A DNA stretch of 32,110 bases, taken from Occallatibacter sp. GTDB lineage: Bacteria; Acidobacteriota; Terriglobia; Terriglobales; Acidobacteriaceae. The position numbers and the translations under genes are program-made. The stretch lies in contig JARLGF010000101.1 of the NCBI GenBank assembly GCA_031296165.1, positions 1 to 32,110 of the forward strand, given 5' to 3'. The notes below the pieces were generated by a model. The model made no database searches and was not told the origin of the DNA. It worked only from the letters and a program-made list of their open reading frames with translations. Shown here one piece after another: positions 8,594-32,110 of the stretch (the stretch's first letter is position 1; each line of letters begins with the position of its first letter).

Positions 8594-8616
8594 GGGGTAC
8601 ACTCCGGGTTCCGGTT

Positions 8617-8637: not shown

Positions 8638-8701
8638 GCCAATTCGCCCGAATTCTACCACTACGAGAGCCGCGGCCGATGTGCCGGGGAGCGGAAACCG
8701 A

Positions 8702-18185: not shown

Positions 18186-18654
18186 CCAGCGCGACCTCAA
18201 ATTCTGGATCGGTGCCTGGTGGCCGGTGGCGGTAGGCATCGCTGTCATCGCACTCGAGTCCACGGAAACGCTCGGCTCCGAGCAGACTTCGGGTCCGTTG
18301 CGGTTTCTCTGGGAAGCTGTTTTCGGGCAAGTCGGCGACGCGCGGTGGGAGTTCATCCATCACCTCATTCGCAAGTCAGGCCACTTCCTCGGCTATGGCG
18401 CCATCGGGCTGGCATGGCTGCGCGCTTGGTGGTTGACGCTACCCCATTCGCGCTTCCTGCAAGACGCGCTGCTCGCGCTTTTTGGGACAGCGCTATTAGC
18501 CGCAACCGATGAGTACCACCAGTCATTCCTGCCCAATCGCACCTCATCACCCTGGGACGTTCTCCTGGACTGCTGCGGAGCCATCACGCTGCAATTGCTG
18601 ATCTACATCTCCATGCGCCTGCTGAGACCCAAACGGCTTGCCAGAGCGGCGTGA
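18175..18654 (+). CDS. VanZ-like membrane protein
   Basis: A 159-residue integral membrane protein of the VanZ-like family. It has about four hydrophobic segments and the family signatures [13 protein letters not shown] (near 65-77) and [21 protein letters not shown] (near 120-140). VanZ confers low-level teicoplanin resistance in enterococci, but most family members have no known function, so no resistance role should be assumed. The ATG overlaps the guaB stop region by 11 bp, indicating translational coupling. The gene converges with the rplQ end of the ribosomal cluster. Confidence 0.85.
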
Positions 18655-18758
18655 CCCCCGCTTTGCTTCCGAGCATGTAGACTTGCGCACTGCGAGCACC
18701 CGGGAACGGCCTCGATCTGATTGAGATACTTTCTGATCGCCAACAAGCTATAAACAAG

Positions 18759-18791
18759 CACGGGCGCATCCCTCGATGGGATGCGCCCGTG
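18759..18791 (-). terminator. Terminator of the ribosomal protein cluster, possibly bidirectional
   Basis: CACGGGCGCATCCC (18759-18772) and its exact complement (18778-18791) form a perfect 14-bp stem with a 5-nt loop between the convergent vanZ-like and rplQ genes. On the minus strand it is followed by the weakly T-rich CTTGTTTAT. It lies 44 bp after the rplQ stop. Confidence 0.75.
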
Positions 18792-18834
18792 TGACCCTCT
18801 GTGCGAAGGTTGAGACCACTAGAGAGACGCCGCT

Positions 18835-19308
18835 TTACGCGGCATCTTCCTTGCTGTCTTCCTTTTTGCTCTCTTCCAGTTGCTTCTCCAGCTCGGCCCG
18901 CTTCTTGGCCTTGATGTCGTCGCGCTTCTGGCGCTTGGCATCGAGCTGCTTTTCGGCGCCCAGAAGTTCGATGAAAGCCTTCTCGGCCCCGTCGCCCTTC
19001 TGAAAGCCAGTCCGGACAATGCGGAGATAGCCGCCCTGGCGATCGCCATAGCGAGGAGCCACGGTTTCAAACAACCTCTCCACCGACTTGTCTGTCATCA
19101 GATAGCTCAGGGCCTGACGGCGTGAGTGCAGATCGCCCTTCTTGCCCAGGGTGATCATCTTTTCTACCAGCGGACGGACAGCCTTGGCCTTGGCCACGGT
19201 TGTCTCCACGCGGTCTTCCACGATGACGGACGTGACCAGGTTACGCAACAGTGCGCGGCGGTGGCTGGTGTTGCGTCCGAGCTTGAATCCTGCATTGCGA
19301 TGGCGCAT
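18835..19308 (-). CDS. rplQ: 50S ribosomal protein L17
   Basis: A 157-residue L17, recognised by MRHRNAGFKLGRNTSHRRAL, the AKAVRPLVEKMITLGKKGDLHSRR segment and YGDRQGGYLRIVRTG. L17 sits near the peptide exit tunnel. From about residue 118 there is an extra Lys/Glu-rich, probably helical tail (ending SKKEDSKEDAA) beyond the usual length of about 120. It is the last gene of the cluster, after rpoA, from which it is separated by a heptamer-repeat spacer. The ATG at 19308 is preceded by GAAAGAGAG. A terminator hairpin follows. Confidence 0.96.
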   Translation of the reverse strand: MRHRNAGFKLGRNTSHRRALLRNLVTSVIVEDRVETTVAKAKAVRPLVEKMITLGKKGDLHSRRQALSYLMTDKSVERLFETVAPRYGDRQGGYLRIVRTGFQKGDGAEKAFIELLGAEKQLDAKRQKRDDIKAKKRAELEKQLEESKKEDSKEDAA

Positions 19309-19329
19309 GGTGAAACTCTCTTTCGGAAT

Positions 19330-19435
19330 TTAGCTTCTAGCTTTTAGCTCCTAGCTCCTAGCTTGTTCTGTTTGGCTCGTCCGATAACTGCGTAATCCGG
19401 CACAGCAAAGCTAGAAGCTAGCGGCTAGAAGCTGT
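19330..19435. repeat. AGCT-type heptamer inverted array, rpoA-rplQ spacer
   Basis: Left arm 19330-19364 is five heptamers: TTAGCTT, CTAGCTT, TTAGCTC, CTAGCTC, CTAGCTT. Right arm 19408-19435 is AAGCTAG, AAGCTAG, CGGCTAG, AAGCTGT. The arms are mutually complementary around a 43-nt loop. The right arm ends in CTG 3 nt from the rpoA stop codon. Confidence 0.85.
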
Positions 19436-19437
19436 TC

Positions 19438-20532
19438 TTAAAAGTTCTCGGTTTCGGTAGGCAACTGCAGATCCACCGAATCCAGCGGTTCGTCCTCGTC
19501 GTCGTAGTGGTTATAGCTGGCGGCCAGTGCGGCGGCGGGCGGAATGCTCGTGGGCCCGGGAACCGCGTTGCCGTTTTCGTCTATCTTCATGCCCAGCGAC
19601 AAGCCCATCTGCGCAAGAATCTCCTTGATCTCGTTCAGGCTCTTGCGGCCGAAATTCTTGGTCTTCAGCATCTCGGCTTCAGTCTTCTGCACCAGTTCGC
19701 CAATGGTCTGAATGTTGGCGTTCTTGAGGCAGTTGTAGCTGCGGACTGAAAGCTCCAGCTCTTCCACTGAGCGATTGAGGTTGTCGTTGCGCAGCAGGAC
19801 GCGGCCTTCTTCTCCGCGCGCCTCGGCTTCGACTTCCTCTTCAAAGTTGATAAAGATGTTCATGTGGTCCTTCAGCAGCTTCGCGGCCAGGCCGACGGCG
19901 TCGGCGGGCAGCACAGCCCCGTTGGTCCACACTTCCAGCGTCAATTTGTCATAGTCGGTGATCTGCCCCAGGCGGGCTGCTTCCACCACGTAGTTAACGC
20001 GGCGCACCGGAGAGTGCACAGAATCCACGGGAATGAAGCCCAAGCCCAGGTCGGCGTCAAAGTTCTTGTCTGCGGAGATGTAGCCGCGCCCTTTCTTGAG
20101 GCGCATTTCCATGTCCAGCTTGCCGCCTTCCGAGAGGGTGGCGATATATACGTTTTTGTCCAGAATCTCCACGTCGCCGTCGGCTTCAATCATGCCGGAA
20201 GTGACCACGCCTGGCTGATCGACGCGCAGATACAGCGCCTTGGGACCGTCGCCCGAAAGCTTGAAGGGAACCTGCTTGAGGTTCAGGATGATGTCCGTGG
20301 CGTCTTCGACCACGCCGGTGATGGACTGAAACTCGTGGAGCACGCCCTCAATGCGAATCGCTGTGACCGCGGCGCCCTCAATGGAACTGAGCAGCGTGCG
20401 GCGCAATGCGTTGCCGATGGTGGTGCCAAATCCGCGCTCAAATGGCTGGGCGCTGAACTTGCCGTATGTATCGGTAAGCGTCTCGGCATCCAATGCCAGG
20501 CGCTTCGGCTTCTGAAATCCTCTCCAAAGCAT
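19438..20532 (-). CDS. rpoA: DNA-directed RNA polymerase subunit alpha
   Basis: A 364-residue alpha subunit. The N-terminal assembly domain begins [15 protein letters not shown] and carries the family hallmarks [21 protein letters not shown]. The C-terminal DNA-binding domain has [15 protein letters not shown] and the helix-hairpin-helix [17 protein letters not shown]. After this there is an extra tail of about 40 residues ending in an acidic stretch ([11 protein letters not shown], then LPTETENF), so the protein is longer than the 329 residues of E. coli. It lies between rpsD and rplQ as in most bacteria. The ATG at 20532 has no strong ribosome binding site. Confidence 0.97.
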
Positions 20533-20613
20533 ATCTGCGTCTCATTTCCCGCCCGGCATGTACGTCGCGATGCATTTTGCGGCGGCCGCGCAAGTTCTCC
20601 TTCGTTTGGAATT

Positions 20614-20697
20614 CAGTGGTCAGTGGTCAGTGAACAGTGGTCAGTAAAGCCCCGTCGGGGAGTCACTGCTCACTGCTCACTGTCCACTGTTCACTGT
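20614..20697. repeat. CAGTG-type heptamer inverted array, rpsD-rpoA spacer
   Basis: Left arm 20614-20645 reads CAGTGGT, CAGTGGT, CAGTGAA, CAGTGGT, CAGT. Right arm 20663-20697 reads TCACTGC, TCACTGC, TCACTGT, CCACTGT, TCACTGT. The 17-nt loop holds its own hairpin CCCC-GTC-GGGG (20650-20660). The right arm runs directly into the rpsD stop codon. Confidence 0.88.
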
Positions 20698-21326
20698 TAC
20701 TTCGAGTACAATTCGACGATCAGCTGCTCGTTGACCGGCAGATTCACGTCCGCACGCTTGGGCAAATGCAGAATGCGCCCGGTCAGCGTTTCAAAGCTCA
20801 TCTCAAGCCACGTGGGAAGCGGGTTCTGGGCGGCAAACTGCGAACCCTGCTCCACGATCAACAACTTCTTGGCGTCTTCGCGGATGGCGATTTCGTCGCC
20901 CACGTTCACCTGGTAGGAAGGAATGTTCACCTTGCGTCCGTTGACCGTTACGTGGCCGTGACGTACCACTTGGCGAGCCTGACGGCGGGAGATGGCAAAA
21001 CCTAGACGGAATGCCACGTTGTCCAGGCGGCGCTCCAACTGCTGAATGAGCAATTCGCCGGTCACGCCACTGGCCCGGTTGGCCTTTTCGTAGTACTCGC
21101 GGAACTGGCTCTCCAAAGTGAAGTACATGCGCTTGGCTTTCTGCTTCTCATGCAGTTGCAAGCCATAGCCCACGATCTTCGCCTTGCGGTCCTTGCCGTG
21201 CTGGCCGGGAGCAAAATTACGCTTCTCCAGCGGGCAACGGTCCGAGGTGCACTTGGTGCCCTTCAAAAATAGCTTGGTGCCTTCGCGACGGCAAAGGCGG
21301 CAGACTGCTCCAGTATAACGTGCCAT
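20697..21326 (-). CDS. rpsD: 30S ribosomal protein S4, zinc-binding type
   Basis: A 209-residue S4, a primary 16S rRNA-binding protein that starts assembly of the 30S body. The N-terminus carries C9, C12, C26 and C31, the zinc-site pattern of the C+ form of S4. The S4 RNA-binding motif follows ([15 protein letters not shown], then [17 protein letters not shown]). The ATG at 21326 has GGAGAA upstream. It is flanked on both sides by CAGTG-type heptamer arrays. The zinc-containing form suggests zinc-replete assembly. No cysteine-free paralog is in the window. Confidence 0.97.
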
Positions 21327-21392
21327 TTCTTCTCCTGACTTCGGATGACGGCCGGTTTACACGTCTCAAAGACATTTCCTCCCGGCCCAATT

Positions 21393-21563
21393 CAGTTTTC
21401 AGTGGTCAGCGATCAGTTTCATCACACTTCTACAAGTGGAATCAATTGATTTGAAATTCCCGATCACTGCTCTCTGTCCCGTTTTCAGCAGTCAGTGTAG
21501 GTTGATGCTGCTCGGACGAACAATATCCAACTGACCACTGACTGCTGAAAACTGACAACTGTT
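21393..21563. repeat. CAGTG-type heptamer array, rpsK-rpsD spacer
   Basis: Left arm 21393-21420 reads CAGTTTT, CAGTGGT, CAGCGAT, CAGTTTC. Right arm 21529-21563 reads AACTGAC, CACTGAC, TGCTGAA, AACTGAC, AACTGTT. An inner, weaker pair lies at about 21461-21497. The terminal CTG is 3 nt from the rpsK stop codon. Confidence 0.83.
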
Positions 21564-21564
21564 C

Positions 21565-21984
21565 TTACACTCTCCGCCGCTTCGGTGGACGGCAGCCGTT
21601 GTGCGGCACCGGCGTCACGTCGCGGATGGAGCGTACTTCCACACCGGCGGCAGCCAATGCTCGGATTGCCGACTCGCGGCCCGAACCCGGCCCCGCAACC
21701 CGTACATCCACCGCGCGCAAGCCGTGATCGCGGGCCAGGCTGGCGGCATTCGAGGCCGCCTGCTGCGCCGCGAACGGCGTGCCCTTGCGCGAACCGCGAA
21801 AGCCCAGTGAACCTGAACTCTTCCAGCTCAGTGTGTTGCCCACCGGATCGGTGATGGTGACAATGGTGTTGTTGAACGTGGCCTGAATGTGCGCAATGCC
21901 GAACGGCACATTCTTGCGCTCGCGCTTCTTGAACTTCTTGTTCTTGGAGGCCTTGCCGGCTCCAGACTTCTCTGGTTTCGCCAT
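21565..21984 (-). CDS. rpsK: 30S ribosomal protein S11
   Basis: A 139-residue S11, part of the 30S platform near the Shine-Dalgarno helix. Hallmarks are [58 protein letters not shown] and the C-terminal [17 protein letters not shown]. An Ala/Lys-rich N-terminal extension of about 20 residues precedes the conserved part. Its ATG directly abuts the rpsM stop codon, so translation is coupled. Confidence 0.97.
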
Positions 21985-22371
21985 TTAGGTTTTACCCGTC
22001 GCTTTCTTTTTGCCGGCAACTGTGCCCTTGCGCGGGCCCTTGCGGGTGCGGGCATTGGTGTGGGTGCGCTGTCCGCGTACCGGCAGCGACCGCCGGTGAC
22101 GGTTGCCGCGATAACTCTGGATGTCGATGAGGCGCTTGATATGCATCTGGACGTCCTTACGTAGGTCGCCCTCCACATTTCCTTCGTCCTCAATCACTTG
22201 GCGGATGCGGTTTACCTCGTCCTCGCCCAGATCCTGGATCTTCTTGAAGGGATCTACATTCGCCTTCTCCAGAATTGTCTTGGCGCGCGGATCCCCGATG
22301 CCAAAGATGTATGTAAGCGCGATCCGTGCCTGCTTGTTGCGGGGCAGATCGACGCCAGCTATACGTGCCAT
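21985..22371 (-). CDS. rpsM: 30S ribosomal protein S13
   Basis: A 128-residue S13 of the 30S head, which contacts the 50S subunit. Hallmarks are [21 protein letters not shown], the helix-hairpin-helix [12 protein letters not shown], and the basic tail with [15 protein letters not shown]. The ATG at 22371 has AAAGGAA upstream. It directly abuts rpsK. A 160-bp spacer separates it from rpmJ. That spacer has small hairpins such as CGCAC-TGTGT-GTGCG but no heptamer array. Confidence 0.97.
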
Positions 22372-22531
22372 TCTTGTTTCCTTTGCCGCTTCTGGTTGTG
22401 TGCCCCCGGCCTCAACCGGTTCGCACTGTGTGTGCGGATTCCCTTCAGGGGTTCATCGCAAGCCTTGACTCAGGCTAACTAGCCCCTTGCCCACTGGGCG
22501 TTTGGAGAGTTCCGCGTGTGCCAGACTCCAA

Positions 22532-22645
22532 CTAACCCTGGCGCTGCTTGTGCTTTGCGTTCTCGCAGATCACCCTGACCACCCCACGGCGGGTGATGAC
22601 CTTGCACTTGACACAAATCTTTTTTACCGATGCCCGAACTTTCAT
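22532..22645 (-). CDS. rpmJ: 50S ribosomal protein L36, zinc-binding type
   Basis: A 37-residue protein translated by hand from the minus strand: it starts [14 protein letters not shown] and ends [10 protein letters not shown] before a TAG. The zinc ligands C11, C14, C27 and H32 are all present, so this is the C+ form. It lies between infA and rpsM, the standard place. Other frames overlapping this stretch are longer but not real genes. The infA spacer is 51 bp. Confidence 0.96.
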
Positions 22646-22696
22646 TGCTGCTGCCCTTCTCCGCGCTCAATATCCAGGCGCGGGTGTTCAAAATAC

Positions 22697-22915
22697 TTAC
22701 TTGTAGCGGTAAACAATCCGTCCGCGATTCAGGTCGTAGGGACTCAACTCCACGGCCACGCGGTCGCCAGGCAAAATACGGATGAAGTTCTTCCGCATCC
22801 TTCCCGAGACATGGGTCAGCACCTCGTGATTGTTCTCGAGTTTGACCTTGAACATGGCGTTCGGCAGGGTCTCTGTAACTACTGCCATTACCTCAATCGC
22901 GTCTTCCTTCGACAA
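22697..22915 (-). CDS. infA: Translation initiation factor IF-1
   Basis: A 72-residue OB-fold protein that binds the ribosomal A site during initiation. It is recognised by EAIEV-like [39 protein letters not shown] and the ending [16 protein letters not shown]. Its start is a TTG (complement of 22913-22915), with GGAGG 11 nt upstream. No ATG gives a full-length product. It lies between map and rpmJ, with a 55-bp spacer to map. Confidence 0.96.
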
Positions 22916-22970
22916 ACTGTGTCCCGCCTCCAGCCCGCTTTAGGCGCACCGGCCTGTGATCCCGAGCGTG

Positions 22971-23720
22971 CTACTCGGTTAAAACTCTCGCCCCGGTAGC
23001 GGTCACCGCCACCGAGTGCTCAAAATGAGCGCTCATGCTTCCATCCGTGGTAACCGCGGTCCAGCCGTCCTCTAGCACCACAACGTCCGGCTTGCCCGCA
23101 TTCACCATGGGCTCAATAGCAATCACCATTCCCGCGCGCAACTTCATGCCACGACCAGCCTGGCCATAATTCGGCACCTGCGGATCTTCGTGCATGTGGA
23201 CGCCGATGCCGTGGCCCACAAAATCCCGCACTACAGAAAACCCCTCGGCCTCGACCACGCCTTGCACCGCAGCGCCGATGTCGCCCAAGGTCGCCCCCGG
23301 CCGCACCTTCGCAATGCCCGCCTGCAGCGACGCTTCCGTCACCTTGAGCAGCCGCGCCGTGTCCGCATCGATCACGCCCACAGGCACCGTAATGGCTGCA
23401 TCGCCACAATAGCCTTCCACGAATGCCCCAAAATCCAGCGATACAATGTCGCCTTCCTTCAGAACCCGCTTGGGCGACGGTATGCCATGCACCACCTCGC
23501 TATTGACTGAGGCGCACAGTACGCACGGATACCCGCCATACCCCTTGAAGGCAGCCTTTACATTCAACTCGTCAAGCCGATCTGCGGCAATCTTCTCCAG
23601 ATCCATCGTCGTCACGCCAGGCTTCACATGGCTGCGTAACAGCTCCAGCACCTCGCGGACCACACGGCCCGCGAGGCGCATCTTTTCGATCTCCTGAGAC
23701 GACTTCAGTACAACAGCCAA
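22971..23720 (-). CDS. map: Methionine aminopeptidase, type I
   Basis: A 249-residue enzyme that removes the initiator methionine from new proteins. All metal and catalytic residues can be placed: H78 in VVHGIP, D96 in SLDFGAF, D107 in CGDAAIT, H170 in VGHGIG, E203 in AIEPM and E234 in HFEHSV. The start that aligns with the family is TTG (complement of 23718-23720). No clear ribosome binding site precedes it, and the next ATG (residue 14) would cut into the conserved helix. It follows adk after a 132-bp spacer with degenerate repeats. Confidence 0.96.
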   Translation of the reverse strand: MAVVLKSSQEIEKMRLAGRVVREVLELLRSHVKPGVTTMDLEKIAADRLDELNVKAAFKGYGGYPCVLCASVNSEVVHGIPSPKRVLKEGDIVSLDFGAFVEGYCGDAAITVPVGVIDADTARLLKVTEASLQAGIAKVRPGATLGDIGAAVQGVVEAEGFSVVRDFVGHGIGVHMHEDPQVPNYGQAGRGMKLRAGMVIAIEPMVNAGKPDVVVLEDGWTAVTTDGSMSAHFEHSVAVTATGARVLTE

Positions 23721-23734
23721 CCCAACCCAGCTTT

Positions 23735-23822
23735 CAGTGATCGGTTACCAGTCGTCAATTACCAGCAAGCCCGCCCCACGGCGTAAAGGCTAAAGACCGA
23801 TAACTAAATACTGACAACCAGC
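23735..23822. repeat. Degenerate CAGTG-type heptamer array, adk-map spacer
   Basis: The left side reads CAGTGAT, CGGTTAC, CAGTCGT, CAATTAC (23735-23762). The right side reads AACTAAA, TACTGAC, AACCAGC (23802-23822). The period is seven, but the arms are worn, and the right arm lies 30 nt from the adk stop, unlike the other arrays. Confidence 0.5.
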
Positions 23823-23852
23823 TTGTAACGCACAAACCACCGTCCGGCTGCG

Positions 23853-24569
23853 CTATTGGCGCATCCGCTCGACGGCGGCAACAATTCCGGCCGCGATTGC
23901 AGCAATCGGCCGGTCTCCATCCACTTCAGCGAAACGTCCTAGAGCCCTGTAGTGTTCCACTACTGGCGCGGTCAAGGCCTCATAAGCGCGCATGCGCTCC
24001 TTGAAAACCTCTTCCGTGTCATCGGCTCGCTGGACAAGCGCCGCACCCTCTACATCGCAAACCCCGTCCCGCTTCGGCGGATTCATGTGCACGTTGTAGA
24101 TGGTCTGGCAGACAGGACAACTTCTGCGCCCCGTAATCCGGCGCAGTAACTGATTATAGTCCACCTGAATGCTGACGGCAATCACCGGCATCGACTTGGC
24201 TTGCGCCGCCAAGCGTCCGTCCAGCCAGCCTGCCTGGCCCAGCGTACGCGGAAAACCATCCAAAATGTAGCCGTTGGCGGTGTCGGGCTGCTGCAGGCGT
24301 ACTGCCACCATCTCGTTCACCAGAGAATCGGGAACCAGTTCCCCGCGACCCATGATCTCTTTGGCCACCTGGCCCAAAGAAGTACCCTGGGACACATTGG
24401 CGCGCAACAAATCGCCGGTGGAGATCTGCGGAATTCCCCACAGCTTCACCAGTTCCTTGGCCTGGGTCCCCTTGCCCACGCCCGGCGCGCCCAACAAAAG
24501 AATCGGGCCGGGAACGGTCTTTGAGTCCGCCGCCCGGCCGCTTTCTACTGTACTTGCAGATGAAGACAT
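23853..24569 (-). CDS. adk: Adenylate kinase, zinc-type LID
   Basis: A 238-residue kinase that interconverts ATP plus AMP with two ADP. The P-loop is GAPGVGKGTQ (27-36), the AMP site includes STGDLLRA, and DGFPRT lies near 104-109. The long LID holds C151, C154 and C171, the zinc-binding pattern of Bacillus-type enzymes, with E174 at the fourth ligand position where Cys or Asp is usual. An N-terminal extension of about 20 Ser/Ala-rich residues precedes the first strand. Its ATG overlaps the secY stop by one base (TAATG), so translation is coupled to secY. Confidence 0.96.
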   Translation of the reverse strand: MSSSASTVESGRAADSKTVPGPILLLGAPGVGKGTQAKELVKLWGIPQISTGDLLRANVSQGTSLGQVAKEIMGRGELVPDSLVNEMVAVRLQQPDTANGYILDGFPRTLGQAGWLDGRLAAQAKSMPVIAVSIQVDYNQLLRRITGRRSCPVCQTIYNVHMNPPKRDGVCDVEGAALVQRADDTEEVFKERMRAYEALTAPVVEHYRALGRFAEVDGDRPIAAIAAGIVAAVERMRQ

Positions 24570-25954
24570 TACCAGGTTTTCCTTCCGCGAATGCGACCGG
24601 AGCGAGGGGAAAAGCCGTCATAATGCCGCATGATCAGCTGCGATTCGATCTGGTTGACCGTATCCATGGCCACACCCACCACAATCAGAAGTGAGGTGCC
24701 GCCAAAGTAGAAGTTGACCCCCAAACCATGTGTTGTCCATGTCGGCAGAGACTCAAAAACTCGGCCGATAAGCCACAATTTGTCAAAACGAATACCCGAG
24801 ATCAGGAAGGTGGGAATTAGCGTGATAGCAATCAAATAGACCGCGCCGACCAGCGTAATCCGGGTAAGAATGTCGTTGATAAAGTCCGAGGTGCGCTTGC
24901 CTGGCCGGATGCCCGGGATGAACGATCCCGACTTGCGGAAGTTGTCGGCAATATCGTCCGGCTTCATGATAATGGACACGTAGAAATACGCAAAGAACAC
25001 GATGCCCAGCATGTTCAGGAACACATACCAAGGATAGCCGGGAGCCAGCGCCTGAAATACGGGTTCCAGGAAGCGGTTGTTCTGCACAAACTCCGTCTGC
25101 CCAAACAGCATGGGTGCCGAAAGCAGAGACTGGGCAAAAATGACCGGCATCACGCCGCCGGAGTTCACCTTGAGCGGCAAGTGGCTCGATTGGCCGCCCA
25201 TCATGCGGCGGCCCACAATACGCCGCGCGCTCTGGATGGGAATGCGCCGCTCCGACCGCTCGACGAAGACGATGAAGGCCACCACGGCCGCCATCGCCGC
25301 CACCAGCAGGATCACCGCAAGAATCGTGAACGATCCCCAGGCGTTGGTCTGGATCTTCTGATACAACTCGCCGATGCCGCGGGGCAGTCCGGCCACAATG
25401 CCAGTGAAGATCAGCAGGCTCATACCGTTGCCAATGCCGCGATCCGTAATCTGTTCGCCCAGCCACATGATGAAGGCCGTGCCCGTGGTCAACGTCAGTA
25501 CCGTCATCATCACAAAGCCTGGACCAGGATTCAGCACCAGACCCTGCTTGGTGAGGATGGCCGCAATCCCAATCGACTGCAGGCAGCCCAACAGTACGGT
25601 CATATACCGTGTCCATTGCGTGATCTTACGACGGCCCAGTTCGCCTTCCTTCTGGATGCGCGCCAATGGCTCGTACACAACGGTCAGAAGCTGGAAGATG
25701 ATCGAAGCCGTGATATACGGCATAATGCCCAGAGCGAAGATCGTCATGCGGCGCAGGTTGCCGCCGCCGAACAGATCCATCAGCCCCAGTGCCGAACCGC
25801 TTTGCTGGTTGAAGAGTTGCTCCAGTAGGTGGGCGTTGATGCCGGGTGTGGGAATCCATGCGCCCAGCCGGTATACGGCAAGAATGCCGAACGTAAATAG
25901 AACCCGCTTGCGCAGGTCGGGAATCCGGAAGATATTGAGAAACTTCTCAAGCAT
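24569..25954 (-). CDS. secY: Protein translocase subunit SecY
   Basis: A 461-residue channel-forming subunit of the Sec translocon, with ten membrane segments expected. Hallmarks are KRVLFTFGILAVYRLGAWIP at the start, a plug-region GLMDLFGGGNLRRMTIFALG, the RIPIQSARR cytoplasmic loop (about 240), VNSGGVMPVIFAQSLL, FRKSGSFIPGIRPGKRT and the C-terminal MRHYDGFSPRSGRIRGRKTW. It overlaps adk by one base and follows rplO after a 147-bp spacer, in which I see no heptamer array. The ATG at 25954 has no strong ribosome binding site. Confidence 0.97.
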   Translation of the reverse strand: MLEKFLNIFRIPDLRKRVLFTFGILAVYRLGAWIPTPGINAHLLEQLFNQQSGSALGLMDLFGGGNLRRMTIFALGIMPYITASIIFQLLTVVYEPLARIQKEGELGRRKITQWTRYMTVLLGCLQSIGIAAILTKQGLVLNPGPGFVMMTVLTLTTGTAFIMWLGEQITDRGIGNGMSLLIFTGIVAGLPRGIGELYQKIQTNAWGSFTILAVILLVAAMAAVVAFIVFVERSERRIPIQSARRIVGRRMMGGQSSHLPLKVNSGGVMPVIFAQSLLSAPMLFGQTEFVQNNRFLEPVFQALAPGYPWYVFLNMLGIVFFAYFYVSIIMKPDDIADNFRKSGSFIPGIRPGKRTSDFINDILTRITLVGAVYLIAITLIPTFLISGIRFDKLWLIGRVFESLPTWTTHGLGVNFYFGGTSLLIVVGVAMDTVNQIESQLIMRHYDGFSPRSGRIRGRKTW

Positions 25955-26101
25955 TTTTGGTTGTCCGCTTCAGGGCGTTTGCCGCCACTCGAATCTTTGC
26001 CACAGGTTATCTTACCCGCGTACCACCTGCCGTGTCCCAACTCACAACCTGCCGGTTGCCCCAGGTCTCGTCCGCCCGCGGCAGACAGACCCGGAGATCG
26101 C

Positions 26102-26569
26102 CTAAGCCGCTGCCGGAGCCGGACCGCCCACAACCACAGCCTTACCGCCGGCCTTTTCGATCTTCTCGACTGCCGATTTGGAAAACTTGTGCGCGTGGAT
26201 AGTGATTGCCGCAGTCAGCTCGCCAGAGCCGAGAATCTTGATCAGCGCCCTCTTGCTCGAGGACAAGCCCAGCTTCTTGTAGTCGTCCAGGCCGATCTCG
26301 GCCACTTCGAGGGCCGCAATCCTGTCCAGATTCACCACCGTGTACTCGGTGCGGAAGATGTTGGTAAAGCCCCGCTTGGGCAGCCGGCGGTGCAGCGGCA
26401 TCTGGCCACCTTCAAAACCGCGCATCAGGCTGAAGCCGGAGCGCGATCCCTGGCCCTTGTGGCCGCGCGCTGAGGTCTTGCCCATGCCGGATCCCATGCC
26501 CCGGCCCACACGCTTGCGTCCGGTGTTAGCCTTCTTGGGCGCGCGCAAATTCGATAGATTCTTTGCCAT
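26102..26569 (-). CDS. rplO: 50S ribosomal protein L15
   Basis: A 155-residue L15, a late-assembly 23S rRNA-binding protein. The N-terminus MAKNLSNLRAPKKANTGRKR leads into the Gly-rich GRGMGSGMGKTSARGHKGQ segment. FEGGQMPLHRRLPKRGFTN and a C-terminal globular part follow. The ATG at 26569 has GAGGAA upstream. An in-frame ATG 20 codons earlier adds sequence that does not belong to the family. A CAGTG-type array separates it from rpmD. Confidence 0.96.
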   Translation of the reverse strand: MAKNLSNLRAPKKANTGRKRVGRGMGSGMGKTSARGHKGQGSRSGFSLMRGFEGGQMPLHRRLPKRGFTNIFRTEYTVVNLDRIAALEVAEIGLDDYKKLGLSSSKRALIKILGSGELTAAITIHAHKFSKSAVEKIEKAGGKAVVVGGPAPAAA

Positions 26570-26633
26570 GATTTCCTCGCTGTAGCGCCGGGAAGGCTTA
26601 TCCAGCCTCGCCGACTCGCGTTCATACATCTGT

Positions 26634-26706
26634 CGGTTTTCAGCGGTCAGTCAGATCTTGCAGAAGTCGTAAACTGACAACCGATAGTCGATCTCTGACA
26701 ACTGGC
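26634..26706. repeat. CAGTG-type heptamer array, rpmD-rplO spacer
   Basis: Left arm 26634-26654 reads CGGTTTT, CAGCGGT, CAGTCAG. Right arm 26672-26706 reads AACTGAC, AACCGAT, AGTCGAT, CTCTGAC, AACTGGC, with the last CTG 5 nt from the rpmD stop codon. The arms are diverged but keep the seven-base period. Confidence 0.72.
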
Positions 26707-26709
26707 TTC

Positions 26710-26898
26710 CTAGTTCTCCAGGATGCGAACCAGGTGCGGAATCGCCTTCACCATGCCGCGAGTGGATTCCGTATCCACGCGCTCCACAATCTGGTTCAGC
26801 CGCGTAAAGCCCAAGCCCTTGACCACGGCCCTATGCTTGGCGGGCGTGGAGTTCTTTGAGCGATAGTACTCAATGCGAATCATCTTGGTTTCCGCCAT
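26710..26898 (-). CDS. rpmD: 50S ribosomal protein L30
   Basis: A 62-residue L30, recognised by IRIEYYRSKNSTPAKHRAVV, GLGFTRLNQIVERVDT and the ending GMVKAIPHLVRILE. L30 binds 23S rRNA on the 50S subunit. It lies three bases downstream of the rpsE stop, so the two are translationally linked. The first Met is the ATG at 26898, with GAGG-like sequence in the end of rpsE. Confidence 0.95.
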   Translation of the reverse strand: MAETKMIRIEYYRSKNSTPAKHRAVVKGLGFTRLNQIVERVDTESTRGMVKAIPHLVRILEN

Positions 26899-26901
26899 AA
26901 C

Positions 26902-27411
26902 TTAAAGCTCCTCTACGGACTTGCCGCGCGCTGCCGCAACTTCGGCCCGGTCGCGCAACTGCTCCAGCGCGTCGAACGTGGCCTTGACGACGTTGTGCGG
27001 GTTTGGCGAACCAAGACTCTTGGTGAGCACGTTCTGCACACCGACAGAGGTCATCACCGCACGCACCGCTCCGCCGGCAATCACGCCCGTGCCTTCGGGA
27101 GCCGGCTTGAGCAGCACCTGCCCGGAGCCGAAACGGCCCAGAACCAGATGCGGAATCGTGGTCTCGGTCAGGTTGATCCGGACCAGGTTCTTCTTGGCGG
27201 CCTCGATCCCCTTGCGAATCGCCTGGGGAACTTCCTTGGCCTTGCCCGAACCGTGGCCCACCACCCCTGCGGCGGCATCGCCTACAACCACCAGCGCGGC
27301 AAACGACATGTTCTTGCCGCCCTTGACCACCTTGGTCACGCGATTGATGGCCACCACCTGATCCTTCAGGTTGTACTGGTTGGCATCGAGTTTCTTCTTC
27401 AAGATCGTCAT
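26902..27411 (-). CDS. rpsE: 30S ribosomal protein S5
   Basis: A 169-residue S5, a fidelity-related protein near the decoding centre. The double-stranded RNA-binding-like N-terminal domain has [20 protein letters not shown] and [18 protein letters not shown]. The C-terminal domain has [20 protein letters not shown] and [18 protein letters not shown]. The start giving [12 protein letters not shown] has GAGAG upstream. Earlier in-frame codons lie in the heptamer spacer. rpmD follows at 3 bp. Confidence 0.96.
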
Positions 27412-27427
27412 TGCTCTCTCGTCCCTC

Positions 27428-27522
27428 CAGTGATCAGTGTTCAGTGAACAAGGTTCAGTCTTTCCCTGCCCTGTCGCGTCTCGCGTTTTCACTGTTCACT
27501 GTTCACTGTTCACTGTTCACTG
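27428..27522. repeat. CAGTG-type heptamer inverted array with five perfect repeats, rplR-rpsE spacer
   Basis: Left arm 27428-27462 reads CAGTGAT, CAGTGTT, CAGTGAA, CAAGGTT, CAGTCTT. Right arm 27488-27522 is TTCACTG repeated five times without change. The last CTG is 3 nt from the rplR stop codon, and the left arm ends 16 nt before the rpsE start. Confidence 0.92.
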
Positions 27523-27525
27523 CTC

Positions 27526-27882
27526 TTAAAATTCCAGGCCAGCCTCGCGCGCTGCATCGGCCAACGCCTTGATGCGCCCGTGATAAAGATAGCCGCCGCG
27601 ATCGAAGACCACCTTCTTGATGCCCTGCTTCACGGCCAGTTCGGCCACTGTCTTGCCGATCTCCTTGGCCGCCGCCACGTTGCCGCCTGTCTTCAGTTTC
27701 AATGCGAGCGTGGAAGCCGAAACCAGGGTCGTGCCTGCTTGGTCGTCGATCACCTGCGCGTAGAGGTGGTTCAGCGAGCGGTAAACATTCAGCCGCGGCC
27801 GCTCCGCTGTGCCCGCCAGCTTGCGACGGATACGATCGTGAATGCGCTGGCGGATTGCGTTCCTTTTGGTTTGCGTAATCAT
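27526..27882 (-). CDS. rplR: 50S ribosomal protein L18
   Basis: A 118-residue L18, which binds 5S rRNA in the central protuberance together with L5. Hallmarks are [40 protein letters not shown], and [21 protein letters not shown] near the end. The ATG at 27882 has GAGAG at modest spacing. It lies between rplF and rpsE, and both neighbouring spacers hold repeats: AGCT type upstream and CAGTG type downstream. Confidence 0.96.
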
Positions 27883-27901
27883 GGTCTCTCGTTCCTATCG
27901 G

Positions 27902-27922
27902 CGGAGCCACCCTGCGGCTCCG
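27902..27922 (-). promoter_or_regulatory. Short hairpin before the rplR start
   Basis: CGGAGCC (27902-27908) pairs perfectly with GGCTCCG (27916-27922) around a 7-nt loop, 19 bp upstream of the rplR ATG. It could affect access to the weak ribosome binding site. Confidence 0.4.
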
Positions 27923-27936
27923 TTCGGTTAAAATTT

Positions 27937-27985
27937 CAGCTTCTGGCTCTTAGCCTCCAGCTTTTAGCTGGAGGCTAAGAGCTGC
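27937..27985. repeat. AGCT-type heptamer palindrome, rplF-rplR spacer
   Basis: Seven heptamers in one register: CAGCTTC, TGGCTCT, TAGCCTC, CAGCTTT, TAGCTGG, AGGCTAA, GAGCTGC. Here the two arms meet with almost no loop. 27947-27961 and 27967-27981 form a perfect 15-bp stem around TTTTA. The terminal CTG is 6 nt from the rplF stop codon. Confidence 0.88.
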
Positions 27986-27990
27986 ATTCC

Positions 27991-28530
27991 CTACTTCGCG
28001 CCCGTCTTGCCGGCCTTCTTCTTCAGCTTCTCGTCTGAGTAACGCACGCCCTTGTTCTTGTAAGGGTCAGGCTTGCGCAACGACCGCATATCGGCCGCCA
28101 CCTGGCCCACCTTCTGCCGGTCGATTCCGGTGATGGTCAAATGCGTCTGCTTGGGATCGACAGCAACCTCGATGCCCGTCGGCAGCGGAAACTCGATGGG
28201 ATGCGAGTAGCCCAATGTAAAGACCACCGTTCCCTTACCCTTCAACTCGGCGCGGTAACCAATGCCTACAATGTCCAGCTCGCGGGTCCAGCCCTTGGTC
28301 ACGCCCTCGACCGCATTGAATACCAGCGCGCGCGTCAGTCCGTGAAATGCGGCATGTTTGTCGCTGTCGCGGTTTACGTGCAACTCCCCGCCAACGGTCT
28401 CCAGTGTGATCCCATCGGCGATCAGCGCCGAAACCTTGCCCTTGGGCCCTTCGACCAGTACCGTATTGCCCTCAACCTTGTACTTGACGCCTGCAGGCAG
28501 CAGGATCGGCTTTTTTCCAATACGCGACAT
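27991..28530 (-). CDS. rplF: 50S ribosomal protein L6
   Basis: A 179-residue L6 made of two similar domains, located near the factor-binding site. It starts [20 protein letters not shown] and carries [35 protein letters not shown] and the conserved C-terminal [18 protein letters not shown]. The ATG at 28530 has AAAGGA upstream. An upstream in-frame start 20 codons earlier adds non-family sequence. AGCT-type arrays lie on both sides. Confidence 0.96.
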
Positions 28531-28605
28531 CGTTTCAATCCTTTGTCGGCTTGCGAGTCCCGCCGGAGCCTGTTTGCTCTTGCGTTCCACTGCAGCCCGT
28601 AAAAA

Positions 28606-28703
28606 CAGCTCTTAGCTGCCAGCTTTTAGCCTTTAGCTTCTTGCCAGCGCTATAAGTGATTGAACTCATCGTGCCGGCTGACAGCTAAAAGCTGATAGCT
28701 GCA
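28606..28703. repeat. AGCT-type heptamer inverted array, rpsH-rplF spacer
   Basis: Left arm 28606-28640 reads CAGCTCT, TAGCTGC, CAGCTTT, TAGCCTT, TAGCTTC. Right arm 28676-28703 reads GGCTGAC, AGCTAAA, AGCTGAT, AGCTGCA. The loop is 35 nt. The terminal CTG is 3 nt from the rpsH stop codon. Confidence 0.87.
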
Positions 28704-28704
28704 C

Positions 28705-29100
28705 TTACCAAACTTCGCAGAGTAGCTCGCCGCCTACGCCTTCGCGGCGCGCCTGTCGACCGGTCATCACGCCCTTGGGCGTGGTCATGATCGAGATGCC
28801 TAGCCCGCCCTGGACACGCTTGATCTCGTCATGGGCGATATACACGCGGCAGCCGGGACGCGAGATGCGCGCCAAGTCGCGGATAGCCGCTTCCGTACCG
28901 CCGTACTTCAGGTACACGCGCAGCACCAGCTTGCCCTCTTCTTCCTGGGTCTTGTAGTTCGAGATATAGCCCTCTTCCTTGAGGATGCGGGCAATCTCGG
29001 TCTTCAGCTTCGAAGCCGGTACATCCAGCTTCTGATGACGCGCCCGGATTGCATTCCGGATCCGCGCCAGAAAATCTGCTACTGGGTCGGTCAGACTCAT
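28705..29100 (-). CDS. rpsH: 30S ribosomal protein S8
   Basis: A 131-residue S8, which binds the central domain of 16S rRNA and, in E. coli, represses the spc operon through its mRNA. Hallmarks are MSLTDPVADFLARIRNAIRA, YISNYK, and the C-terminal GISIMTTPKGVMTGRQARRE with GGELLCEVW at the end. The ATG at 29100 has AAGGAGAAGGA upstream. The spacers on both sides carry AGCT-type arrays. Confidence 0.97.
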   Translation of the reverse strand: MSLTDPVADFLARIRNAIRARHQKLDVPASKLKTEIARILKEEGYISNYKTQEEEGKLVLRVYLKYGGTEAAIRDLARISRPGCRVYIAHDEIKRVQGGLGISIMTTPKGVMTGRQARREGVGGELLCEVW

Positions 29101-29158
29101 TCCTTCTCCTTCATTCCCCGTTCGTCCGCTACTGCGGAAACCTGCGGGAATGCAAAAA

Positions 29159-29249
29159 CAGCCTCTAGCTTTTAGCTACTAGCTCTTCTAACTCAGTGAA
29201 GCTTTTCGCCATTTCTCGAAAAGCTAAGAGCTAGAAGCTAGCAGCTGCC
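29159..29249. repeat. AGCT-type heptamer inverted array, rpsN-rpsH spacer
   Basis: Left arm 29159-29186 reads CAGCCTC, TAGCTTT, TAGCTAC, TAGCTCT. Right arm 29222-29249 reads AGCTAAG, AGCTAGA, AGCTAGC, AGCTGCC. The loop is 35 nt and includes a GAAGCTTTTCG / CGAAAAGC partial pairing. The terminal CTG is 5 nt from the rpsN stop codon. Confidence 0.87.
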
Positions 29250-29252
29250 TTT

Positions 29253-29438
29253 TTACCAGCTTGACTTCACGACGCCGGGAATTTCACCCTTGAGCGCCAA
29301 AGCCCGGAAACACAGGCGGCAGATACCGAACTTGCGCAGAAAGCCGCGAGGCCGTCCGCAGAGTTGGCACCGATTGTGCTTGCGGCTGCTGAACTTCGGC
29401 TTCCGCGCGTCTTTCACCCGTTTTGCTGTAGTTGCCAT
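29253..29438 (-). CDS. rpsN: 30S ribosomal protein S14, zinc-binding short type
   Basis: A 61-residue S14 of the short zinc-binding type. The ligands are C24, C27, C40 and C43 ([20 protein letters not shown]). Zinc-free S14 proteins are about 100 residues and lack these. S14 lies in the 30S head. The ATG at 29438 has GAGG upstream. The gene is flanked by AGCT-type arrays on both sides. Confidence 0.97.
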
Positions 29439-29454
29439 AAATCCTCTTCAACCT

Positions 29455-29602
29455 CAGCTATTAGCTTCTAGCTATTAGCTTCTAGCCTGCTCCCTGCTCA
29501 GCGTCGTTTCACGCTCATGGAACCGACTCGATATCGTTTTGCCTCAGATGCTCGTCCTACCTCGAAAAAGCTAAAGGCTAGAAGCTAGCAGCTAGAAGCT
29601 GT
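29455..29602. repeat. AGCT-type heptamer inverted array, rplE-rpsN spacer
   Basis: Left arm 29455-29489 reads CAGCTAT, TAGCTTC, TAGCTAT, TAGCTTC, TAGCCTG. Right arm 29568-29602 reads AAGCTAA, AGGCTAG, AAGCTAG, CAGCTAG, AAGCTGT. The loop is 78 nt, the longest among the AGCT-type arrays. The terminal CTG is 2 nt from the rplE stop, and the left arm stops 16 nt before the rpsN start. Confidence 0.9.
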
Positions 29603-29603
29603 C

Positions 29604-30152
29604 CTACGCGCCCTGCCGGAAGGGCATTCCAAAGTGCTTGAGCAACGCACGCGCCTGATTGTCGTCCTTGGCCGTGGTCACTATGGTGATGTTCATGCCC
29701 TTCAGCTTCTCCACCTTGGAGTAATCGATCTCCGGGAAGATCAACTGGTCGCGCAGGCCGAGCGTATAGTTGCCGCGCCCGTCAAAACTCTTGGTCGATA
29801 CCCCGCGAAAATCCCTGACCCTGGGCAGCGCCGTTGAAATCAGCCGGTCAAGAAACTCATAGGCCTTCTCATTGCGCAGCGTCACCATGGCGCCAATCGA
29901 CATGCCTTCGCGTACCTTGAAGGCCGCAATCGACTTCTTCGCCTTGGTGGTCACCGGCTTCTGCCCGGTAATCGCCATCAGGTCGCCCACCAGCGGGTCC
30001 AGCAGCTTGGTGTTCTGCGTGGCCTCGCCCAGACCCATGTTGATCACGATTTTCTCGAGCGCGGGCACCGCCATCGCGTTCTCAAGCCCCAGCTCCTTTT
30101 GCAGAGCCTGCTTGATTTCCTTGTGATACTTCTCTTTCAGCCTTGCCGTCAT
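29604..30152 (-). CDS. rplE: 50S ribosomal protein L5
   Basis: A 182-residue L5, which binds 5S rRNA and contacts P-site tRNA. Hallmarks are [40 protein letters not shown], the [20 protein letters not shown] segment, and [19 protein letters not shown] near the end. The ATG at 30152 has a GAAAGAGAG stretch some distance upstream. The 129-bp spacer to rplX has no heptamer array. Confidence 0.97.
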
Positions 30153-30281
30153 GTTCCACTACTCTCTTTCTTCCGGTCCCGGAGTGGCCCTCTCGTCCGA
30201 TTGGCCGTTTACCGTTGCGGAAGGGGTTGGCCGATCCTGGTTTGAGCTTCCTCGCTCACACAGTCACGGCTTGGGATCCCG

Positions 30282-30608
30282 CTACTTTTTGGTAGGCAGC
30301 GCCTGCCCGCACTTCTTGCACACCCGAACCTTGGTGCTGCCCTCAATCTTGTAGCCCACGCGCACCGGCCCGCAGGTGGAGCAGACAACCGCCACATTCG
30401 AGACGTTGATCGGCGATTCCTGCTCGGCAATGCCGCCCTTGGTCCGCTGCCCCTGCTTGCTCGAAACCGTCTTCTTGACCACCCGGACGTGCTCCACAAG
30501 CACGGTTCCCTTGTCGGGGAAGACGCGCAGCACACGGCCCGTCTTGCCGCGGTCCGAGCCCGTGAGAACCTTGACCGTATCGTTGCGATGAATATTCAAA
30601 CTCTGCAT
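30282..30608 (-). CDS. rplX: 50S ribosomal protein L24
   Basis: A 108-residue L24, an assembly initiator near the tunnel exit. It has the KOW motif region (NDTVKVLTGSDRGKTGRVLR) and the family segment GGIAEQESPINVSNVAVV. C76, C79, C97 and C100 form a CxxC-x17-CxxC zinc-ribbon pattern found in many but not all L24 proteins. The ATG at 30608 has GGAGAAG upstream. It follows rplN after an AGCT-type array. Confidence 0.96.
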   Translation of the reverse strand: MQSLNIHRNDTVKVLTGSDRGKTGRVLRVFPDKGTVLVEHVRVVKKTVSSKQGQRTKGGIAEQESPINVSNVAVVCSTCGPVRVGYKIEGSTKVRVCKKCGQALPTKK

Positions 30609-30623
30609 CTTCTTCTCCAGAAA

Positions 30624-30735
30624 CAGCTACTAGCTTCTAGCTATTAGCCTCTAGCTCTTCGTTCACAGCTCCCACCCTTTTCAACTCCGCCTGACTTTCC
30701 GGCACATAAGCTGAAGGCTAAAAGCTAGCGACTGT
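30624..30735. repeat. AGCT-type heptamer inverted array, rplN-rplX spacer
   Basis: Left arm 30624-30658 reads CAGCTAC, TAGCTTC, TAGCTAT, TAGCCTC, TAGCTCT. Right arm 30708-30735 reads AAGCTGA, AGGCTAA, AAGCTAG, CGACTGT. The terminal CTG is 3 nt from the rplN stop, and the left arm ends 15 nt before the rplX start. Confidence 0.88.
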
Positions 30736-30737
30736 CT

Positions 30738-31109
30738 TTACACAACTTCCGGGGCCAGCGAAACGATCTTCAAAAACTTCTTTTCGCGCAACTCGCGGGC
30801 CACCGGCCCAAAGACGCGCGTACCCACCGGCTCGTGCGCATCGTCGATCACCACGGCCGCGTTTTCATCGAACCTGATATAGGTTCCGTCACGCCTGCGG
30901 TACTCCTTGCGAGTGCGGACGATAACCGCCTTCACCACTTTGCCCTTTTTAATCGTGCCGTCCGGCGAGGCTTCCTTCACGGCCGCGGTCACGATGTCGC
31001 CGAGACCCGCCTTCTTGCCTAATCCCCCGCCCAGCGGCAGGATCACTTGCAGCTTGCGCGCGCCGGAGTTGTCGGCCACCGCGAGCATGGTTCTCATTTG
31101 CACAGCCAT
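30738..31109 (-). CDS. rplN: 50S ribosomal protein L14
   Basis: A 123-residue L14 at the subunit interface. Hallmarks are [19 protein letters not shown], the basic strand [29 protein letters not shown] and [20 protein letters not shown] at the end. The ATG at 31109 has AAGGAG upstream. It lies 25 bp after rpsQ. Confidence 0.97.
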
Positions 31110-31134
31110 GGGTTCTTCTCCTTATCGCTCTCGT

Positions 31135-31461
31135 CTACTTGACGGCTGCCTTGGCAGCGTCTTCAATCTGACCGAGCGACGAGCGCCGGACAATTTCTTC
31201 CAGAGACCAGCGCTTCAACTTGCTCAGCGGCCGGGTTTCGCGAATCCGAACCACATCGCCCATGCGCGCGGAACTCTGCTCATCGTGCGCATAAAACTTC
31301 TTGGTGGTGCGCATGATTTTCTTGTACTTGGGATGGGGCTTGCGCATCTCGACCTCGACCACGATGGTCTTCTGCATCTTGGTCGAGACAACCTGGCCAA
31401 CCTTTTCGTTGCGCCGCGCGCCAGTAGCCGGCGCCTGCACTGCTTCTTTCGTCGCCGTCAT
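31135..31461 (-). CDS. rpsQ: 30S ribosomal protein S17
   Basis: A 108-residue S17, an early 16S rRNA-binding OB-fold protein. The core has [39 protein letters not shown] and [20 protein letters not shown]. It carries an N-terminal extension of about 18 residues and an Ala-rich C-terminal tail beyond the usual length of about 85. Its ATG directly abuts the rpmC stop codon, so the two are translationally coupled. Confidence 0.96.
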
Positions 31462-31701
31462 TTAGCGGGCTCCCTTCTTGTTTTTCGTGGCTTCGGCGGC
31501 AGGGCCGCCCGCGCCAAGCTCACGCTCGCGGGCCACGGTCTTGATCTGTGCGATCTCTTTGCGCAACTGGCGGAGCTTCTTGACTCCGTCGTTCTGCCCC
31601 AGCGAGACCTGAAAGCGAAGCCGGAAGAGCTGCTCGGCAGTCGTTTTCTCCTGATGCCGTAGCTCTTCGTCGCTCAAAGTGCGAATCTTTGCCAGTTCCA
31701 T
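31462..31701 (-). CDS. rpmC: 50S ribosomal protein L29
   Basis: A 79-residue L29, a two-helix protein near the tunnel exit that helps dock trigger factor and signal recognition particle. Hallmarks are KIRTLSDEELRHQEKTTAEQ, LFRLRFQVSLGQ and KLRQLRKEIAQIKTVARER. An Ala/Lys/Gly-rich tail adds about 15 residues. The start at 31701 is preceded almost at once by the heptamer array. The GGAG in a repeat unit lies 13 nt upstream, and AAGAGAAG lies closer. Confidence 0.96.
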   Translation of the reverse strand: MELAKIRTLSDEELRHQEKTTAEQLFRLRFQVSLGQNDGVKKLRQLRKEIAQIKTVARERELGAGGPAAEATKNKKGAR

Positions 31702-31707
31702 CTTCTC

Positions 31708-31814
31708 TTAGCTCCTAGCTTTCAGCTTTCAGCTCTCAGCTTCCTACTGCTCATGCGTATCTCTTCGATTCAACGCGCTGAGCCGGAAGCTGACGGCCGA
31801 CCGTCAAAAGCTGC
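31708..31814. repeat. AGCT-type heptamer inverted array, rplP-rpmC spacer
   Basis: Left arm 31708-31742 reads TTAGCTC, CTAGCTT, TCAGCTT, TCAGCTC, TCAGCTT. Right arm 31780-31814 reads GAGCCGG, AAGCTGA, CGGCCGA, CCGTCAA, AAGCTGC, more diverged. The terminal CTG is 5 nt from the rplP stop. The left arm reaches to 6 nt before the rpmC start. Confidence 0.8.
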
Positions 31815-31818
31815 ATTT

Positions 31819-32110
31819 CTACTTCGCTTCGGCAACAACCTTTTCGGCGCCTGGGCGCATGACGAACTTTGTCCTGAGCGGCAGCTTGTTGGACGCCAGG
31901 CGCATTGCCTCTTCGGCGACGGTGGGGGATACCCCTTCCATCTCGAAGAGAATCTTGCCGGGCCGAACAACCGCAACCCAATGGTCGAGTGCGCCCTTGC
32001 CGGAACCCATTCGGACTTCGGCCGGCTTCTTGGTAATTGGCTTATCCGGGAATAGACGCAGCCAAACCTTGCCGCCACGCTTGATGAAACGGGTCATGGC
32101 AATACGGCTG
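31819..32110 (-). CDS. rplP: 50S ribosomal protein L16, C-terminal part
   Basis: The C-terminal 96 residues of L16, which sits near the A site and 5S rRNA. The frame stays open to the right edge: before the internal Met at 32097 it reads SRIA, matching the IEAARIAMTR region of the family, so the true start lies outside the window. Hallmarks are [39 protein letters not shown] and [16 protein letters not shown], with a short extra tail ([12 protein letters not shown]). Confidence 0.95.

Follow-up and report, generated by a model that had tools for sequence, protein, structure and literature searches.

The window analysed here is a stretch of 32,110 nucleotides from an Occallatibacter metagenome-assembled genome (MAG; 2.78 Mb, 65.5% complete; contig JARLGF010000101.1), whose ribosomal protein cluster, running from L16 to L17 on the minus strand, holds pairs of inverted arrays of seven-nucleotide units in its spacers. 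We find that these arrays are probably gene-less members of a class of small elements of the intervening sequence (IVS) type, built around a gene for S23p (PF05635, '23S rRNA-intervening sequence protein'). On the mRNA strand the arrays share a common frame, (YAG N4)n - loop - (N4 CTR)n, in which we call the YAG chain arm1 and the CTR chain arm2.

According to the mechanism that we propose, a full element would consist of arm1, an S23p gene and arm2, the arms being facing arrays of a short unit, usually of 7 nt. Such elements would settle in operon spacers right after a stop codon, or replace the tip of a hairpin in 23S rRNA. A ring of S23p may recognise the repeats, perhaps with one unit per subunit. 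Gene-less copies may have arisen from, or spread with, the S23p elements, and ribosomal operons would tolerate them as RNA hairpins outside the coding frames, possibly cut by RNase III in analogy to the IVS of rRNA. Throughout, three-digit labels such as L114, L135 and L165 denote sampled loci and not ribosomal proteins; G labels denote genomes, G000 being the window's own MAG.

S23p genes between facing arrays

We surveyed the operons of the MAG with genes defined by a simple open reading frame (ORF) rule, and found arms in the L13-S9-S2 operon, a cytochrome pair, nuo, a serine-biosynthesis-like pair and sucC-sucD. The arms between sucC and sucD enclose a gene of PF05635, and an S23p ORF stands between arms in the same genome at loci L166 and L173. 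S23p is present in 65 of 79 genomes of the genus and in 75 of the 149 acidobacterial genomes sampled. Genus S23p loci were taken in E-value order among the matches listed, skipping contig-end matches and two loci already sampled, and G000:C39 was an addition outside this order. Of the 40 genus S23p genes, 24 have YAG and CTR arms together, compared with none of 176 control genes, and at least one arm accompanies 29/40 and 6/176, respectively; the reversed-word control occurs at 3/40 S23p genes on each side. Nine of the 16 genes without both YAG and CTR arms have units of 8 or 9 nt, and eight of the nine loci with these periods fall into one clade of the S23p tree (support 100/99), with L205 outside it. 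In 24 of 42 S23p loci both sides have their best lag at 7; in the remainder it is mostly 8 or 9.

A measure of flank complementarity that presupposes neither word nor period gives the same picture. It omits three of the 42 S23p loci (too short or masked); 33/39 exceed the 95th percentile found for 183 control genes, and 26/39 the control maximum. The median is 39 for an S23p gene's own flanks, compared with 16 for mismatched S23p flanks (95th percentile 31, maximum 55), some of which share a word. With neighbours defined by the same ORF rule, 31 of the 37 scored genus loci are co-directional with the genes on both sides; three of the 40 were omitted, two as too short and one as not placed.

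Across the phylum, we collected 30 S23p genes from 29 loci, among them the MAG's own C83 gene for a second time (L285) and a pair of near-identical loci (L274, L276). An array lies on at least one side of 29/30, and flank complementarity exceeds 21 in 25/30, compared with 5/76 control windows; the arm periods are 7 (33 arms), 8 (14) and 9 (1). Thirteen plasmid loci, from 11 cyanobacteria, Gemmatirosa and Azospirillum, were chosen for diversity among 29 records before their flanks were viewed. Every one has a 7- or 8-nt array upstream of S23p, and nine reach a flank complementarity of at least 29. At three cyanobacterial plasmid loci (L258, L260 and L264), S23p has CRISPR-associated genes on both sides, cas6 and cas4 in two cases and cas10 and cmr3 in the third, and is surrounded by heptamer or octamer arrays.

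The boundaries of an element can be read directly in Azospirillum lipoferum 4B, where an S23p element lies in 23S rRNA (Rfam LSU) as an insert of 473 nt. A second 23S copy in this genome matches on both sides and is otherwise identical, without the insert. The arms lie at most 4 nt from the two ends of the insert, which stands where the other copy has a 19-nt hairpin tip (L268 compared with L298). In this one isogenic case, the arms are the ends of inserted DNA.

The repeat word changes together with the protein. Unit similarity correlates with S23p identity among pairs from different sites (rho = 0.31, n = 2461, permutation maximum 0.10) and, when the period-7 pairs also come from different genomes, more strongly (rho = 0.53, n = 1330, permutation maximum 0.11); both values ignore shared ancestry, so that the effect size is uncertain, and omit nine of 82 S23p loci that lack an array score of at least 8. 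One MacB-like site carries different S23p genes with different words, and like S23p genes at different sites share a word. The co-change of repeat spelling and S23p suggests, from sequence comparison, that S23p may read the repeats.

Gene-less arrays in ribosomal spacers

In the window's cluster, 17 spacers are 40 nt or longer. AGCT recurs in 26 pairs at lag 7 and 23 at lag 14, and at most once at any other lag below 20. A strong lag-7 run is found in 9/17 window spacers and in 273/563 spacers of 40 genus relatives, where lag 14 reaches 247/563, every other lag at most 9/563, and dinucleotide shuffles 2/563 at lag 7. Throughout the MAG, a triple AGCT pattern has 61 matches and a triple CAGTG pattern 27 + 29, compared with none for either reversed control; among the places listed, 15/61 and 9/56 fall inside the 12.5 kb ribosomal cluster. 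The arrays that the sequence-only reading of the window had described are real by these measures, their lag-7 signal lying far above that of shuffled sequence. At the gathering score, Rfam has no match in 18000-32110.

Both arms have at least three units in nine of the 17 spacers, all on the minus strand. In the rpoA>L17 spacer (19309-19437), arm1 has four units of family A, the AGCT type, at 19407..19434, 3 nt past the rpoA stop codon, and arm2 five units of that family at 19331..19365. Family B, the CAGTG type, occupies the S4>rpoA spacer (20533-20696), with five units of arm1 immediately past the S4 stop (20662..20696) and arm2 at 20614..20648. The S11>S4 spacer (21327-21564) has CAGT-type arms, with five units in arm1 (21527..21561) and arm2 at 21393..21420, and the L18>S5 spacer (27412-27525) again family B, with five identical units in arm1 (27488..27522) and arm2 at 27428..27448. 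The remaining five belong to family A. In L6>L18 the two arms touch to form a compact hairpin (27951..27984); arm1 and arm2 otherwise lie at 28674..28701 and 28606..28640 in S8>L6 (28531-28704), at 29220..29247 and 29159..29186 in S14>S8 (29101-29252), at 29567..29601 and 29455..29489 in L5>S14 (29439-29603), and at 30707..30734 and 30624..30658 in L14>L24 (30609-30737). The L16>L29 spacer (31702-31818) has one strong and one worn arm, the family A arm2 at 31709..31743 having a worn partner. Worn copies with two-unit traces stand in L30>L15 (26641..26704) and, at each end, in adk>map (23728..23813). We found no arms in the other five spacers. The sequence-only reading had counted eleven armed spacers and one worn, which holds when worn arms are included and becomes nine under the strict two-arm count; its phrase 'nearly every spacer' was slightly too strong.

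For comparison, we scanned 1280 spacers from 41 clusters of the genus, among them the window's own, and 57 clusters from related Acidobacteria outside it. Duplicates by L6 sequence were dropped (23 of 80 cluster loci, the partial contig L080 possibly wrongly), as were spacers shorter than 40 nt, longer than 500 nt or containing N, hence the S23p spacers of loci L114 and L100. Two-chain elements occur in 281/1280 spacers, with YAG first in 276/281, compared with 0 in shuffles and 17 in reversed sequence. We retained those whose YAG chain ends upstream of the CTR chain, 261 in all (197 from the genus, 64 from others). At least one is present in 22/57 of the other clusters and in 36/40 genus relatives, and because these include the single-contig genomes L039 and L042, the arrays are no assembly artefact. 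Arm1 starts 0-6 nt past a stop codon in 189/261 elements; some gene starts, such as rpoA of locus L018, are approximate, and distances to starts are accordingly rough.

The two arms of an element share their core in 198/261 cases, compared with 127 expected when arms are re-dealt within genomes. Across the genus, a single orthologous spacer may show up to six core types or be almost empty, and sister species carry different families. Families A and B both exist, as first proposed, and are only two of many variants of one YAG-N4 frame. The AGCT pattern is itself very patchy in the phylum, with any match in 116 of 396 genomes. Its reversed control, a TCGA word, is abundant in some of these genomes, which was the first sign that many words share one frame; acidobacterial genomes with more than 100 matches of a TCGA-cored period-7 pattern, another lineage-specific word, include G242, G104, G288 and G274. 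The loops had been described as unrelated, and within a genome they are (2/375 pairs similar); orthologous loops can be related (16/1315, compared with 11/15888 for different genome and spacer). Five units are commonest in gene-less arms (102/261 and 129/261), and six or more are rare (11/261 and 12/261). Arms flanking S23p genes have up to 11 or 12 units. A one-sided expansion in the MAG (L165, contig C118, about 8598-8921) sets a short CAGT arm against a facing array that scores 34 units as a CTR chain and shows a higher order of 14 nt.

In the window genome, gene-less units include families A and B, and so do the S23p cassettes. Several observations tie the gene-less arrays to S23p. Gene-less arms are closer to S23p words from their own genome than to re-dealt ones (similarity 0.406 compared with 0.275, sd 0.031; 500 re-deals reached 0.406 at best). 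S23p genes per Mb correlate with armed ribosomal spacers over 39 genomes (Spearman 0.53, p = 0.0006), and the mean armed share is 0.155 in the eight S23p-free genomes with enough spacers, compared with 0.383. The rpoA>L17 spacer, gene-less in the window, contains an S23p gene in L114, with arrays on both sides, and in L135, with a clear downstream array; in L100 it contains a decayed S23p with stops. One ribosomal spacer thus shows, from species to species, S23p-bearing, decayed and gene-less forms. L100 (CAJCHN010000095.1) is labelled Rhodanobacteraceae and has an L6 82% identical to this acidobacterial protein, so it is perhaps a mislabelled MAG. The window copies have no S23p ORF between their arms and lie in spacers between ribosomal protein genes, not in 23S rRNA; consequently, we term them gene-less relatives and not IVS.

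A number of results weigh against assigning the window arrays to S23p elements. An own-genome S23p unit match of at least 0.6 is found in only 32% of gene-less elements, compared with 15% re-dealt, with one to three S23p loci sampled per genome. Seven of the nine genus genomes without detected S23p, at a stated completeness of 87-99%, are still armed, indicating that arms can persist in a cell after S23p is lost, or without any S23p at all; G345 (four S23p genes) and G435 (one) have no YAG/CTR-armed ribosomal spacer. The scan of 1280 spacers detected no S23p remnant in gene-less loops and found only the S23p of L135, so that decay is shown for one step only. The arms differ in core in 52/197 genus elements. 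By a stricter array score, 29 of 82 S23p loci have arrays on both sides, 44 on one and nine on none; 23/76 phylum control windows have an array on some side, and 4/13 plasmid S23p loci lack flank complementarity above control level. The one resolved site, in Azospirillum, shows 19 nt replaced and no target-site duplication of the kind expected for a miniature inverted-repeat transposable element. The neglect of ancestry in the correlations belongs here as well, as does the lack of a mobilising enzyme.

Two further loci deserve mention. Family A arms also accompany a phage portal gene and a HipA-like gene within 7511-12631 of L168 (G000 C142), and the genus member L048 has a 353-codon reverse-strand frame inside its L15>secY spacer (1149 nt).

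Folding and competing explanations

The arms are paired with a period of seven and can fold, as the sequence-only reading expected. The median z-score is -4.66 for 260 elements, z is below -2 in 97%, and a median of 71% of arm1 pairs with arm2; all nine window elements fold, with z from -3.1 to -8.7, and have the terminal inverted stem-forming ends of S23p/IVS elements. The arm units do not covary across the stem: their identity is 0.594 in register, compared with 0.576 ± 0.006 when permuted (maximum 0.594), and pairing arm1 with the arm2 of another element gives 0.588. Strong folding without unit covariation indicates that the word seems to matter more than exact pairing. A stem selected base by base is not supported, on the same ground.

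These data bear on the strongest competing explanation, that the arms serve ribosomal operons as hairpins for RNA processing or regulation and are selected for pairing, the link to S23p being a side effect. Strong folding, the fixed place after stop codons and the persistence of arms in S23p-free genomes all agree with it, as do the L5>S14 orthologs of five relatives, in which the arms are better kept (0.77-0.97 and 0.83-0.89) than the loops (0.49-0.64), the arms being also of simpler sequence. Selection for pairing is nonetheless at odds with the missing covariation, with orthologous spacers that switch family or stand empty, and with S23p genes outside ribosomal operons that bear the same arms. 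We consider this explanation unlikely, though a serious contender.

It is considerably less probable that the arrays are ordinary heptanucleotide satellites born of slippage, into which S23p genes merely insert. One survey found heptamers to be the commonest class of long simple repeat in most of its genomes (Mrazek 2007, as related in PMC4679880), and long expansions such as that in L165 exist. A satellite origin does not account for the inward polarity fixed in 276/281 element pairs, for the facing pairs that flank most tested S23p genes, or for a unit that tracks S23p identity; moreover, the Azospirillum 23S copy lacking the insert has no array. Repetitive extragenic palindromic (REP) elements or bacterial interspersed mosaic elements (BIME), moved by a REP-associated tyrosine (RAYT, Y1) transposase, would likewise be intergenic, inverted, repeated and near stop codons, and are very improbable here, as tandem heptamer arrays are unlike the REP design and the incomplete MAG has a single Y1_Tnp match, which lies at the end of a contig and is interrupted by a stop codon.

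How S23p might act on the arms is a more tentative matter. The solved PF05635 relative 2GSC (E = 5e-21) has five chains, and because gene-less arms most often have five units and rarely more, we infer one unit per S23p subunit. The predicted structure of the L135/L114 S23p is helical with a mean predicted local distance difference test (pLDDT) score of 58. A pentameric S23p ring might read the repeated word of its own element's RNA or DNA arms, protein and word would co-diversify, and gene-less pairs would parasitise essential operons or serve the host. We rate this combined proposal somewhat below an even chance.

Relation to known systems

As far as the literature covered tells, S23p has no known function and bacterial heptanucleotide repeats have no agreed cause. 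A connection between them offers each a role that can be tested, with a protein, a likely target, and natural cognate and non-cognate pairs, and the ribosomal operons of a soil lineage are filled with copies of a small element. If a ring does read the word, the elements would form a widespread mobile-element class that recognises its target on a new principle, and many so far unexplained bacterial heptanucleotide repeats would be accounted for.

Tandem 7-nt units lie between genes in the window, as in short tandemly repeated repetitive (STRR) sequences and heptanucleotide satellites. The STRR of heterocystous cyanobacteria are tandem heptanucleotides. The likeness to STRR drawn by the sequence-only reading is sound for the tandem heptamers and incomplete in that the arms go with S23p genes, which that reading could not see. 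On plasmids of such cyanobacteria, heptamer arrays lie upstream of the S23p genes examined, whereas the parts of the literature covered do not describe STRR as paired arms of a gene-bearing element. Calothrix heptanucleotides are named in the portion of PMC4692102 covered.

The other comparisons likewise draw on the covered parts of the papers cited. The closest published element is the IVS of Coxiella burnetii, which has inverted stem-forming ends, an S23p ORF and, upstream of it, two to three tandem heptamers and a degenerate one (GACAGAT; PMC4990558); GACAGAT, read as CAG-ATGA, is a YAG-N4 unit. The window copies differ in being gene-free and in mRNA spacers, and the Coxiella heptamers appear as a variable feature of local extent and not as paired arms for recognition. 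Inserts of the IVS type are excised from rRNA by RNase III (PMC4990558).

Paired inverted heptamer arrays had been reported before, a point on which the sequence-only reading is incomplete: two Xanthomonas genomes contain 70 and 75 such pairs of GGGAATC (PMC4692102). These heptamers and the Nostoc repeat GGGGAYT likewise lie between co-directional ORFs; they prefer four units and stand on the coding strand after stops and on the other strand before starts (PMC4692102). They are discussed there through G-quadruplexes, and 'S23', 'four helix' and 'intervening' are absent from the text of PMC4692102; the AGCT and CAGTG units appear to lack G-runs for such structures. In Beggiatoaceae, TAACTGA heptamers are intergenic, also within ribosomal protein operons, and adjoin start codons (PMC4679880). 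TAACTGA is itself an N4-CTR unit, like arm2, and differs in forming direct repeats, with a single inverted case; 'S23' and 'helix bundle' are absent from the text of PMC4679880. The solved relative 2GSC is described as a ring of five four-helix bundles, and PF05635 is held to be homologous, by sequence and structure alignment, to Avd, the accessory protein of diversity-generating retroelements, which differs in working with a reverse transcriptase and variable repeats (PMC10053308).

A search of the open-licence literature returned no text linking S23p genes outside rRNA with heptamer arms, which is no proof of absence. In the sources covered, IVS with S23p and inverted ends, the heptamers of the Coxiella IVS, the inverted pairs of Xanthomonas, and the heptamers of cyanobacteria and Beggiatoaceae are already known separately. 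Within that literature, S23p genes between arms outside rRNA, the co-change of word and protein, and gene-less copies filling ribosomal operons seem to be new.

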